This document shows, piece by piece, positions 45,403 to 50,634 of a stretch of 64,000 nt of DNA. Source of the DNA: Enemella evansiae (lineage in GTDB: Bacteria > Pseudomonadota > Alphaproteobacteria > Rhodobacterales > Rhodobacteraceae); NCBI GenBank assembly GCA_017255395.1, contig JAFKDC010000011.1, positions 62,001 through 126,000 of the forward strand. The letters are read 5' to 3'. The position numbers and the translations under genes are program-made. The first letter of the stretch is position 1. The number at the start of each line of letters is the position of its first letter. The notes beneath the pieces were generated by a model. That model saw only the letters and a list, made by a program, of their open reading frames with translations, made no database searches and was not told where the DNA came from.

Positions 45403-46185
45403 TCAGTGCGCGCGTTCCACCAGCATCTGCTTGATGTTCGCGATCGCCTCTGCGGGGTTCAGACCCTTCGGGCAGGTCTTGGCGCAGTTCATAATGGTGT
45501 GGCAGCGGTACAGCTTGAACGGGTCTTCGACGTTGTCCAGCCGCTCACCCGTCGCCTCGTCACGCGAATCGATGATCCAGCGGTAGGCGTGCAGCAGGGC
45601 TGCGGGTCCAAGGTAGCGGTCGCCGTTCCACCAGTAGCTGGGGCAAGCGGTCGAGCAGGATGCGCACATCACGCATTCATACAGGCCGTCCAGCTTCTTG
45701 CGGTCCTCGATGGACTGCTTCCACTCTTTCGCCGGGCGGTTGGTCTTGGTTTCCAGCCAGGGCATGATGCTGGCGTGCTGGGCATAGAAATGCGTCAGGT
45801 CCGGGATCAGGTCCTTGACCACCGGCATGTGCGGCAGCGGGTAGATCTTGACGGTCTCGGTCTCGACCTCGTCGAGGCCGTAGATGCAGGCCAGCGTGTT
45901 GATCCCGTCGATGTTCATCGCGCAGGACCCGCAGATCCCCTCGCGGCAGGACCGGCGGAAGGTCAGCGTCGGGTCGACCTCGTTCTTGATCTTGATAAGC
46001 GCGTCCAGAACCATCGGGCCGCAGGCGTCCATGTCGAGGAAATAGGTATCCACCCGTGGGTTGTCGCCGTCGTCGGGGTTCCAGCGATAGATCTGGAACT
46101 TGCGGATGTTGGTCGCGCCGTCCGGCTTCGGCCAGGTCTTGCCCGTGCGGATGCGGGAATTCTTGGGGAGAGTGAATTGGACCAT
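45403..46185 (-). CDS. sdhB: Succinate dehydrogenase iron-sulfur subunit
   Basis: 260 residues. Carries electrons from SdhA flavin to quinone through three iron-sulfur clusters. The 2Fe-2S site is C-R-E-G-I-C-G-S-C with a later C (about 80-104), and the 4Fe-4S/3Fe-4S sites are [12 protein letters not shown] (about 171-182) and [12 protein letters not shown] (about 228-239). GGAGG-type ribosome site before the ATG. Separated from sdhA by three unrelated genes. Confidence 0.97.
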
Positions 46186-46245: not shown

Positions 46246-46566
46246 TCACCGGAGCGCCCCCTGAAGCAGCGCGGGCAACCCGCGATTGGCAAGGCAGGAC
46301 AGCGTCTCGGGCCGGGCCGCGATCTCGGAAACGATCTGGATCGAGCTTTCCGTGGGCCCGCCGACGGTATCCACGGCCAGCGCATAGATCTGCTGGGCCG
46401 AGGCATTGTCGATCACGCAGTCGATGGCGGGCTGGACCGGCACGCCGGGGAAGCGCTCGACCACCACACGCGACACGGTGGACCGTGCCGCCTCGCGGGC
46501 GATGGTATCCTGCGACTGGGCCGTACAGGCGCCAAGCGCGAGCATCAGAAGAAGGGCTTTTTTCAT
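46246..46566 (-). CDS. Small putative lipoprotein inside the sdh operon (106 aa)
   Basis: 106 residues starting MKKALLLMLALGACTAQSQD, with a lipobox L-A-L-G-A-C (C15). The mature part contains D-C-V-I-D-N-A-S (about 50) and another cysteine in TLSCLANRGLP, suggesting a disulfide. AAGGTGG precedes the ATG, which overlaps the stop of the FkbM gene (ATGA). Lies 60 bp before sdhB. I do not know a function; its place in the operon may imply co-expression with respiration. Confidence 0.72.
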   Translation of the reverse strand: MKKALLLMLALGACTAQSQDTIAREAARSTVSRVVVERFPGVPVQPAIDCVIDNASAQQIYALAVDTVGGPTESSIQIVSEIAARPETLSCLANRGLPALLQGALR

Positions 46567-47252
46567 GAAGGCCACCTTGCAAACAGAGCATCGACGTAAC
46601 GCGGTGCGGCACCGCCGCGCCCGTCCCCGGGCAGCGACAGGACATCGCGGAATTCCAGCCCCGCCGCGGCAAGGGCCGCAATCACCCGGCTGGGCGGCGC
46701 CACCCCTTCGAACCGCTGGCTGAGCGACAGTTCGAGAATGGCAAACTCGGTCCGGGCAAGCGTCTCGGGCGCGCCCTGAAGGACATCCAGTTCGAAGCCT
46801 TCGGTGTCGATCTTCAGACCGACACGGCCCGGGTAGGCCTGCATGATCTGGTCCAAAGTCCGCACCTCGACCGAGCGGGTTTCGACCGATTGCACCCGCC
46901 GCGCCATCGGGCCGGCGATCTCGCGGAAGCCCGCCATGGCGCCGTCGGTGCCGTGTTTCGTCACCGGTATCCGCAAGTCCATCCGGCCCGGCGCGGGACC
47001 GGCGGCGCAGGCATGAAAGTCATAGTCGGCGGGCGCGGCTGACAGGTCTTCCGCCACCTCCGCCCGGGGATCGACCAGCACGAATTTCGTGTTCGGAAAG
47101 GCATCGTAGAGATGCGGCGTGCCCCTGTGGACACCCACATCTGCGACGACATCGGGCGCAAAGCCGTAGCCGCGAAGATGGTCCGCCCCTTCGCGGTTGC
47201 GCACCGCGACCAGTCCTTCACGCCGCAGGGCGCGGCGAAGCTCGGGGGTCAT
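46563..47252 (-). CDS. FkbM family methyltransferase inside the sdh operon
   Basis: 229 residues from Met at 47252 (an alternative start is 47291). S-adenosylmethionine fold: motif I VVADVGVHRGTPHLYDAFP (about 36-54), FVLVDPRAEVAEDL (about 57-70), and the FkbM hallmark VGLKIDTEGFELDVLQGAPE (about 144-163). FkbM proteins O-methylate sugars or other small molecules. No glycan cluster is near, and the gene is embedded between sdhA and sdhB with overlapping starts and stops, so the substrate is unclear. Confidence 0.82.
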   Translation of the reverse strand: MTPELRRALRREGLVAVRNREGADHLRGYGFAPDVVADVGVHRGTPHLYDAFPNTKFVLVDPRAEVAEDLSAAPADYDFHACAAGPAPGRMDLRIPVTKHGTDGAMAGFREIAGPMARRVQSVETRSVEVRTLDQIMQAYPGRVGLKIDTEGFELDVLQGAPETLARTEFAILELSLSQRFEGVAPPSRVIAALAAAGLEFRDVLSLPGDGRGGAAPRYVDALFARWPS

Positions 47253-47295
47253 GTGGATGCCCCCCGGCGCCCCGGGCAGGCCCTGTGGCATGCGG

Positions 47296-47595
47296 TCAGT
47301 CCAAGCAATAGAGCGTGCCCCTGTACATCTTCGGCGCGCCCGGCACGCAGCCGGGCAGCGGAACGTGGACGAGGTTCACGGGCTTCTGCCGCCCCGGCGC
47401 GCGGTAGGTGCCGCGCGCCATGCAGTCCTGAAGGATCTGATTGTAGCGCGCCTGATAACCGTATTTCGACCCGCTGTAGGCATTGGCCTCGGCCTCTGCG
47501 TAGCAGGTCTGGGATACGGTGCCATAGCCGTTCGCCAGTGCCGGAAGGGCAGAGGCGGCGGTCAGGGCGGCGGCTGCAATCAGGGTCTTCGTCAT
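47296..47595 (-). CDS. Small exported protein following sdhA (99 aa)
   Basis: 99 residues with a signal peptide ([21 protein letters not shown], cleavage near 21). The mature part has Tyr/Gly-rich NGYGTVSQTCYAEAEANAYS and four cysteines, probably two disulfides. Its ATG overlaps the sdhA stop (ATGA), so it is translated with sdhA. The family is not recognised beyond a vague memory of small proteins at this position in related genomes. Confidence 0.75.
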   Translation of the reverse strand: MTKTLIAAAALTAASALPALANGYGTVSQTCYAEAEANAYSGSKYGYQARYNQILQDCMARGTYRAPGRQKPVNLVHVPLPGCVPGAPKMYRGTLYCLD

Positions 47596-49400
47596 CAGAA
47601 AGTCCTCGCTTTCGGGGCGATCTTCTGCAACGAAATCCCGCCCTGTTCCTCGTTCGTCAACGGATCGACGATGACAGGACGATAGCTCAGCGCGACGGTG
47701 TTTCCATCGACACGGGCAACGGTGTGGACACGCCAGTTCTCGTCGTCCCGCTCCGAGAAGTCCTCGTGCGCATGGGCGCCGCGCGATTCCTTGCGCGCCT
47801 CGGCGCCGACGATGGTCGCCAGGGCGTTGGGCATCAGGTTCGTCAGTTCCAGCGTTTCCATCAGGTCCGAGTTCCAGACGAGGCTGCGGTCGGTGACCTT
47901 CAGGTCGTCCAGCTTGGCGGCAATGGCGGTCATCGCCTCAACACCCTCGGCCATGGTCTCGGCGGTGCGGAAGACGGCGGCATCGCGCTGCATGGTCTTC
48001 TGCATTTCCAGCCGCAGCTCTGCCGTGGGCACGCCGCCATCCGCATGGCGCAGACCGTCGAAGCGGGCGAAGGCCTTGTCGATCTCGCCCTTGGGCGCCA
48101 CCGGCACCGCGCCTTCGCGGTCAACCACCTGACCGGCGCGGATCGCGGCGGCGCGACCGAAGACCACGAGGTCGATCAGCGAGTTCGATCCCAGACGGTT
48201 TGCACCATGCACCGAGGCACAGCCCGCCTCGCCCACGGCCATAAGGCCGGGGACCACGGCGGTCGGGTTGTCCTCGGTCGGGTTCAGCACCTCGCCCCAG
48301 TAGTTCGTCGGGATGCCGCCCATGTTGTAGTGCACGGTGGGCAGGACCGGGATCGGTTCCTTGGTCACGTCCACACCAGCGAAGATCTTGGCCGACTCCG
48401 AGATACCCGGCAGGCGCTCTGCCAGCGCCTCGGCGGGCAGGTGCGAGAGGTTCAGGTGGATGTGGTCGCCGTCCTTGCCGACGCCCCGGCCCTCGCGGAT
48501 TTCCATGGTCATGGAGCGGCTGACGTAGTCGCGCGGCGCAAGGTCCTTGTAGGTCGGCGCGTAGCGTTCCATGAAGCGCTCGCCCTCGGAGTTCGTCAGA
48601 TAGCCGCCCTCGCCCCGTGCGCCCTCGGTGATCAGGCAGCCAGAGCCGTAGATGCCGGTCGGGTGGAACTGCACGAACTCCATGTCCTGAAGCGGCAGAC
48701 CGGCGCGGGCCACCATGCCGCCGCCGTCGCCGGTGCATGTGTGGGCCGAGGTGGCGGAGAAATAGGCGCGCCCGTAACCGCCGGTGGCCAGAACGACCAT
48801 CTTGGCGTTGAAGACGTGCATCGTGCCGTCGTCCAGCTTCCAGCAGAGAACGCCCTTGCAGACGCCGTCCTCCATCAGCAGGTCGATGGCGAAATACTCG
48901 ACGTAGAATTCGGCCTGCTGCTTCAGCGACTGGCCATACAGCGTGTGCAGGATGGCGTGGCCGGTGCGGTCGGCGGCGGCGCAGGTGCGCTGCACCGGGG
49001 GGCCTTCGCCGAACTCGGTGGTGTGGCCGCCGAAGGGCCGCTGGTAGATCTTGCCCTCTTCGGTGCGCGAAAACGGCACGCCGTAGTGCTCCAGCTCGTA
49101 GACCGCCTTGGGCGCCTCGCGGGCGAGGTATTCCATCGCGTCGGTGTCGCCCAGCCAGTCGGAGCCTTTGACGGTGTCGTACATGTGCCACTGCCAGTTA
49201 TCGGGCCCCATGTTCGACAGCGAGGCGGCGATGCCGCCCTGTGCCGCCACGGTGTGCGAGCGCGTCGGGAAGACCTTGGTCACGCAGGCCGTGCGCAGGC
49301 CCTGCTCGGCCATGCCCAGCGTCGCACGCAGCCCGGCGCCGCCGGCACCCACGACCACGACGTCATAATCATGCGTCTCGTATTCGTATGAAGCAGTCAT
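47595..49400 (-). CDS. sdhA: Succinate dehydrogenase flavoprotein subunit
   Basis: 601 residues. Oxidises succinate to fumarate with covalently bound FAD. Dinucleotide motif [20 protein letters not shown] (about 13-32), FAD-linking histidine in [12 protein letters not shown] (H near 50), substrate/catalytic regions [21 protein letters not shown] and R-P-x-x-x... near the C-terminus, and H in [11 protein letters not shown]. Normal length. Follows sdhD by 22 bp. Confidence 0.97.
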
Positions 49401-49422: not shown

Positions 49423-49794
49423 TCAGAGGGCGATTTTCACGAGGGCGAACAGCCCCATGGCCATCAGCGTATAGGTCAGCGCCGAGGTGGCGATCAGAGC
49501 GAAGCGCTCTGCCATGCCGTGGACGTAGTCCTCGATCGCCTCATGCGCCTCGTTCTTCACGTGGTTGAGGATCACGATCATGCCGAGGCCGGTGACGATG
49601 GCGGGCCAGGGGCGCGAGAAGTAGGCGATGACCTCTTCGCGGGTCCCGCCCATGCCGGCGCCGAAGGTGAAGACGAAGAGCGGCACGACCACGACCATCA
49701 GGATCGACGAGATCAGCATCTGGTAGTGGTGATGGGTGCCCTGCCCCGAGGCGCCAAGGCCGGTGGCCCGCTTGCGGTCTGTCAGATAACGCAT
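49423..49794 (-). CDS. sdhD: Succinate dehydrogenase membrane anchor subunit D
   Basis: 123 residues with three membrane helices (about 22-44, 53-75, 95-117). Typical SdhD: N-terminal [20 protein letters not shown] with the G-S/A-G-x-G-T-x-H-H segment, and [17 protein letters not shown] with the haem/quinone-site histidine and D-Y. Anchors SdhAB with SdhC. Start at ATG 49794, 10 bp after sdhC; the open frame continues upstream in sdhC without support. Confidence 0.93.
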
Positions 49795-49804
49795 GATGAC
49801 CCCC

Positions 49805-50194
49805 TCAGATCGCGATTGCCGTGAAGAGCGCCAGCAGCGTGGCGCCGATGAACATGCCCCAGCCCATGTACTCGGAGGTCTGGACGTCGAGGCAATAACC
49901 GAAGTCCCAGATGACGTGCCGCAGCCGTCCGAGCATGTGGTACCAGATCGCCCACGACCCGACGAACAGCACGAGGTTGCCGAGGATGCTGAGCAGCAGA
50001 CCGTCGACCAGCGCGAAGGCCTCGTCCGAGGAGGCCGCCGCAAGCAACCAGATTGCCAGCAGCACGGCGATGCCCAGCGTGATCAGCCCGGTGATGCGCA
50101 CCATGATAGAGGACATGGAGGTCATCTGCGGGCGGTAGTACTGCCCGATCATGAAGGGAGAAAGCGGGCGATTGCCCCGGTTCACATCAGCCAT
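49805..50194 (-). CDS. sdhC: Succinate dehydrogenase cytochrome b subunit
   Basis: 129 residues with three membrane helices (about 28-52, 62-86, 107-129). The N-terminal R-P-L-S-P-F/H motif and S-I-x-x-R-I-T-G, and WYHMLGRLRHVIWDFG with the haem b histidine, identify SdhC. First gene of sdhCDA-x-x-x-B. Two TGTGATCACA palindromes lie 118-148 bp upstream of its ATG. Confidence 0.94.
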   Translation of the reverse strand: MADVNRGNRPLSPFMIGQYYRPQMTSMSSIMVRITGLITLGIAVLLAIWLLAAASSDEAFALVDGLLLSILGNLVLFVGSWAIWYHMLGRLRHVIWDFGYCLDVQTSEYMGWGMFIGATLLALFTAIAI

Positions 50195-50311
50195 GGGGAT
50201 ATCCTGGGTTGGGGTCCGTTGGTGCCGTTCTATCGCTTTTTACACCGCTGTCACCCGTGGGTGCGGCACTGCGGCGCGGTTTTTTGGCGCATTTCGCGAA
50301 AATCGTCGCGA

Positions 50312-50343
50312 TGTGATCACAGCTTTTATCGGTGTGATCACAC
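50312..50343. promoter_or_regulatory. Tandem TGTGATCACA palindromes upstream of sdhC
   Basis: TGTGATCACA occurs at 50312-50321 and 50333-50342, exactly 21 bp apart, so both sit on the same face of the helix; the second extends to GTGTGATCACAC (50332-50343). They lie in the 236-bp gap upstream of sdhC. The half-site TGTGA with no spacer resembles GntR/FadR-type or CRP-like half-sites, but the regulator is unknown. Confidence 0.6.
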
Positions 50344-50430: not shown

Positions 50431-50634
50431 TCAGTCTTCCGGGAAACCCATCTTGCGCAGCGCGGCCTTGGCCTTGCGTTTCAGGGTATCGTCCTGCGAG
50501 CCGAGATCGCGGTGCAGCTTTCCCATAAGTCCCGAGAGCGCGCGGCGGTCGGCCAGAGAACGGATGGTGTTCGGAATTTCCCCATCGGGAAGACCGAGGA
50601 CCTCGTCGGAGGTCTGCGGCAGGTTCAGGCTCAT
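50431..50634 (-). CDS. Small hypothetical protein (67 aa)
   Basis: 67 residues starting MSLNLPQTSDEVLGLPDGEI. Charged, helical, with no membrane or signal segment (DTLKRKAKAALRKMGFPED at the end). GGGGGTG lies upstream of the ATG. I recall similar short proteins in Rhodobacteraceae; no function known. It lies upstream of sdhC in the same direction but is separated by a terminator-like hairpin and the tandem palindromes, so is probably a separate unit. Confidence 0.65.
   Translation of the reverse strand: MSLNLPQTSDEVLGLPDGEIPNTIRSLADRRALSGLMGKLHRDLGSQDDTLKRKAKAALRKMGFPED

Follow-up and report, generated by a model that had tools for sequence, protein, structure and literature searches.

A twin palindrome upstream of sdhC and sucC in the Rhodobacteraceae and its probable regulator, AkgR

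The sdh locus and its twin palindrome

The window analyzed here is a stretch of 64,000 nucleotides (contig JAFKDC010000011.1, positions 62,001 to 126,000 of the forward strand) from GenBank assembly GCA_017255395.1, which is named Enemella evansiae and assigned to the Rhodobacteraceae in GTDB. The window carries an sdh operon on the minus strand with the following features, given in the direction of transcription.

50333..50342, no strand: promoter-distal palindrome TGTGATCACA, half of the putative twin operator, kept in 65/70 sdhC upstreams
50322..50332, no strand: 11-bp spacer with an A/T tract, between the palindromes
50312..50321, no strand: promoter-proximal palindrome TGTGATCACA, half of the putative twin operator, kept in 65/70 sdhC upstreams
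50280..50303, minus strand: three A/T islands (50299-50303, 50291-50294 and 50280-50285), phased ~10 bp apart after the operator
50249..50254, minus strand: predicted -35 box GTGACA of the sdhC promoter, 57 bp from the operator
50227..50232, minus strand: predicted -10 box TAGAAC of the sdhC promoter, 16 bp after the -35
49805..50194, minus strand: sdhC, succinate dehydrogenase cytochrome b556 subunit (Pfam Sdh_cyt and NCBIfam TIGR02970)
49423..49794, minus strand: probable sdhD, by position and hydrophobic sequence
47595..49400, minus strand: sdhA, succinate dehydrogenase flavoprotein subunit (NCBIfam TIGR01816)
45403..46185, minus strand: probable sdhB, iron-sulfur subunit, by sequence

The twin site consists of two perfect 10-bp palindromes, 21 bp apart start to start, located between sdhC, whose minus-strand start is at 50194, and a small upstream ORF, with 117 bp between the operator and the sdhC start. 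An earlier note on this DNA had placed two identical palindromes at 50312-50343; both were found there, with the true end at 50342. The pair had also been called improbable by chance, in agreement with an expectation of 0.07 copies of TGTGATCACA in the window and with 0 shuffles containing two copies. Functionless chance palindromes are ruled out by conservation, since the pair gave 0 control matches across 296 genomes and is present in 65 of 70 sdhC upstreams; nothing was found in favor of a chance origin, and its probability is vanishingly small.

The small ORF (P0003, 67 aa, 50431-50634, minus strand) immediately precedes the operator and is co-oriented with sdhC, and no Pfam family was matched by its product. 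Three extra ORFs (99, 242 and 109 aa; 46246-47595, minus strand) are located between sdhA and the probable sdhB, and the sdh operon is split by these apparently unrelated genes.

The half-sites had been likened in the earlier note to CRP/FNR and GntR elements lacking a spacer. The half-site TGTGA/TCACA is indeed the CRP half-site, and the lack of a spacer was confirmed, but CRP and FNR need half-site spacings of 6 and 4 bp, respectively, and zero bases separate the half-sites in every copy. A CRP- or FNR-type site is contradicted by these spacer-free palindromes and is very improbable; of the two resemblances the GntR-type one held up, with a GntR-type protein as the likely partner.

Occurrence in this genome and across the family

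In the 4.83-Mb genome, exact TGTGATCACA occurs in only five copies, four of which make up the two pairs in front of sdhC and sucC; a reversed-pattern control gave 0 matches in the whole genome. Random sites thus seldom carry an exact copy, and the second pair bears out the earlier guess that the element is found at suc genes too. This pair (contig C23) has a 10-bp spacer and lies 112 bp before sucC, which is followed by long ORFs resembling sucD, sucA, sucB and lpd by sequence. The core GTGATCAC alone, with 150 copies in the genome, occurs too often for a regulon to be defined by it, and the signal resides in the outer T/A and the pairing rather than in this core alone. The fifth and sole unpaired exact copy of TGTGATCACA (L001 1501-1510; G000:C1:276677-276686) lies close to the beginning of an ORF whose product is probably a membrane protein and which adjoins leuD.

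The exact pair, with spacers of 8-14 bp permitted, was sought in an order-level sample of 296 genomes, every one of them listed under a single family. The exact pair was present in 205 of these genomes, with 0 control matches and with spacers of nearly always 11 bp and in a few cases 10 bp. When the outer bases were freed (GTGATCACN12-13GTGATCAC), the relaxed pair was recovered in 291/296 family genomes, mostly as exactly two pairs per genome and again with 0 control matches, and in 1/187 genomes outside the family in a class-wide draw from the Alphaproteobacteria. In a scan of named genomes, the matches listed were almost only from Rhodobacterales. Within the fetched loci, every pair that could be assigned stands in front of sucC (119 pairs, median distance 108 bp) or sdhC (30 pairs, median 136 bp) and before no other gene; the few unassigned pairs are mostly near locus ends, and one of these, in Brachybacterium, probably has no relation to the operator. 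Two sucC loci with the twin operator carry labels from elsewhere, L153 (labelled Nocardioides marinus) and L092 (a MAG labelled Robiginitomaculum); their sucC genes are 88% and 94% identical, respectively, to the sucC of this genome, and the labels probably reflect contamination or mislabelling.

Conservation at sdhC itself was determined from an unbiased set of orthologs, in which 65/70 upstreams contain the pair at ≥17/20 positions, i.e. at least 17 of its 20 bases; orthologous sdhC promoters therefore do not, as a rule, lack it. Among 95 sdhC pairs the spacer is 11 bp in 86 and 10 bp in 8. The earlier description of the site as a cooperative operator for sdh stands as regards an operator-like element; cooperativity between the twin sites is plausible because they share a helical face and their spacing is conserved.

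AkgR as the candidate regulator

The names RSP_0981 and AkgR are taken here to denote the same protein of R. sphaeroides. In R. sphaeroides, the GntR-family regulator RSP_0981 has sucCD, sdh and odhAB as predicted targets (PMC4344238), and a second report (PMC6365646) gives GTGATCAC among the binding sites of the activator AkgR of this organism. The operator described here contains the GTGATCAC core, it precedes sdh and suc, and a GntR-family ortholog is encoded in the genome. This agreement with the published AkgR regulon (PMC4344238 and PMC6365646) supersedes the earlier view that no cognate protein was obvious.

The candidate akgR ortholog (G000:C35:24535-25176) encodes GntR and FCD domains and its product is 70-73% identical to counterparts in Rhodobacter ruber, Defluviimonas and Tabrizicola. 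GntR genes were absent inside the first pair loci, one MAG excepted; the distance between the GntR gene and sucC is ~13 kb in Rhodobacter ruber and ~10 kb in Defluviimonas. Conservation, the autoregulatory site and co-occurrence served as criteria for the ortholog group. An akgR ortholog (E below 1e-70) was found in 291/296 genomes. Only one of these, G233, misses the relaxed pattern, and there a degraded pair persists before sucC. Five genomes are without a clear ortholog (G023, G110, G141, G229 and G234), four of them also without the pair, and the co-occurrence of pair and akgR has a Fisher p of 8e-8, uncorrected for shared ancestry.

The promoter of akgR bears the motif as well. Among the 30 closest orthologs, 28 loci have a single site just before the akgR start codon, which in this genome reads CGTGATCACA. 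A TTGA(C/T) -35 begins 16-18 bp before this site (17 bp in 24/28), so that the end of the promoter spacer and part of the -10 lie within the site. The single site is retained in G110 and G229, where the akgR homologs are diverged (48-49% identical) and no pair precedes sucC; together with the 28/30 akgR loci, this gives independent support for matching the protein family to the motif. In the corresponding loci of these two genomes (L344 and L345), which belong to one genus, a single TGTGATCACA lies over the promoter of the diverged homolog, and the regulon of this genus may have shrunk to autoregulation.

Two points count against AkgR. In Rhodobacter ruber the GntR gene is downstream of sucC, whereas the RSP numbering suggests an upstream position in R. 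sphaeroides, and the ortholog search found no akgR in G023 despite its two pairs. Its congener G020 has one, and an assembly gap or a recent loss may account for the case. Retention of the pair in G023 would also fit a main user of the site other than AkgR, either another GntR-family protein, for which ~40 GntR matches in the genome offer candidates, or an unrelated regulator. In PMC6365646, GTGATCAC moreover serves a second GntR regulator, PS417_07240 of the deoxyribonate cluster in Pseudomonas simiae, which is 32% identical to AkgR; this same 8-bp core palindrome lies there at -47 to -40 of the catabolic cluster, and a twin sdh/suc site is not described there. Against another regulator stand the co-occurrence of pair and akgR and the presence of the motif in the akgR promoter itself, even in diverged homologs without a sucC pair, and such a regulator is rather improbable. 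As judged from these sequence comparisons, the cognate protein of the twin site is almost certainly AkgR.

Promoter spacing and direction of control

Downstream of the operator, a conserved GTGACA/GTGACT -35 is followed, usually 16 bp further, by a TA-rich -10. In 93 distinct sdhC upstreams, in which all GTGAC[AT] within 120 bp were counted, this -35 occurs only at 35-36, 46-48, 56-59, 67-69 and 78-79 bp from the operator. These offsets correspond to whole helical turns, and a mirror motif used as control was rare and scattered. With the main class omitted, the other offsets are in phase with it (p ~5e-5 vs uniform, the genomes being related and not independent). At sucC the best -35 candidates are most frequent at 45-47 bp, nearer by one turn than those of sdhC, and this signal is weak.

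The DNA between operator and promoter, surveyed in ~120 sucC and ~30 sdhC upstream loci, contains A/T islands with a period of ~10 bp whose register is locked to the operator. A and T interchange freely in these islands, and positions 9 and 10 are 99% A/T at sucC. Such conservation of A-or-T suggests minor-groove contact or DNA curvature.

The following mechanism is proposed. One AkgR dimer would bind each palindrome, as expected from the family, and the two dimers would lie on the same helix face, two turns apart, with the predicted transcription start some 95 and 116 bp downstream of them. From there they would activate the sdh promoter, either by face-specific contact with RNA polymerase or via curved intervening DNA, and the operon beginning with sucC would be controlled by the same twin site. 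Activation of sdh and suc is proposed because of this geometry and the published designation of AkgR as an activator. The single copy over the akgR -10 would lead to autorepression, which is proposed because the operator overlaps this element. Overall, the twin palindrome is very probably an AkgR operator activating sdh and the sucC operon, with the single site repressing akgR.

The opposite sign of control is unlikely. GntR/FCD regulators are often repressors, and AkgR on the twin site might repress sdh and suc, e.g. by looping, for which whole-turn spacing would likewise be expected, or by blocking an upstream activator. However, AkgR is termed an activator in PMC6365646, and the operator, rather than covering the promoter, precedes the -35 by 35-79 bp, in contrast to the single site over the akgR -10. 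Activation by AkgR at the twin site is therefore preferred to repression. Geometry may even set the sign, and we offer this tentatively, at somewhat less than even confidence: AkgR would be a dual regulator, repressing akgR from a single site at the -10 and activating sdh and suc, via phased A/T, from a twin site whole turns upstream (~35 to 79 bp), with the promoter having been moved during evolution by full-turn steps only.

Class I activators, CRP among them, act from sites that lie upstream by whole helical turns. The twin site is similarly placed, and a like mechanism is what we infer here; the protein family is different, and the palindromes have zero spacer. The closest known system is the AkgR regulon of R. 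sphaeroides, which shares the sdh, sucCD and odhAB targets (PMC4344238), the GTGATCAC core (PMC6365646) and a GntR-family regulator; the present site comes from a different genus of this family. The regulator, its targets and the motif core have already been published, and the site is an addition to the AkgR regulon. The strict twin layout, the single akgR -10 site and the whole-turn spacing were measured here. A literature search for the literal TGTGATCACA gave unrelated matches only. Neither the twin layout across the family nor the overlap with the akgR promoter nor the whole-turn spacing was met in the literature searched, to which the 2015 AkgR paper did not belong, and no priority is claimed.

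If AkgR is the regulator, sdh and suc, which encode neighbouring steps of the TCA cycle, would be tied to one dedicated regulator across nearly the whole family. The sdhC upstreams form a natural data set of the permitted shifts of a regulator site relative to its promoter, in which whole-turn spacing would be an evolutionary readout of face-specific regulation.
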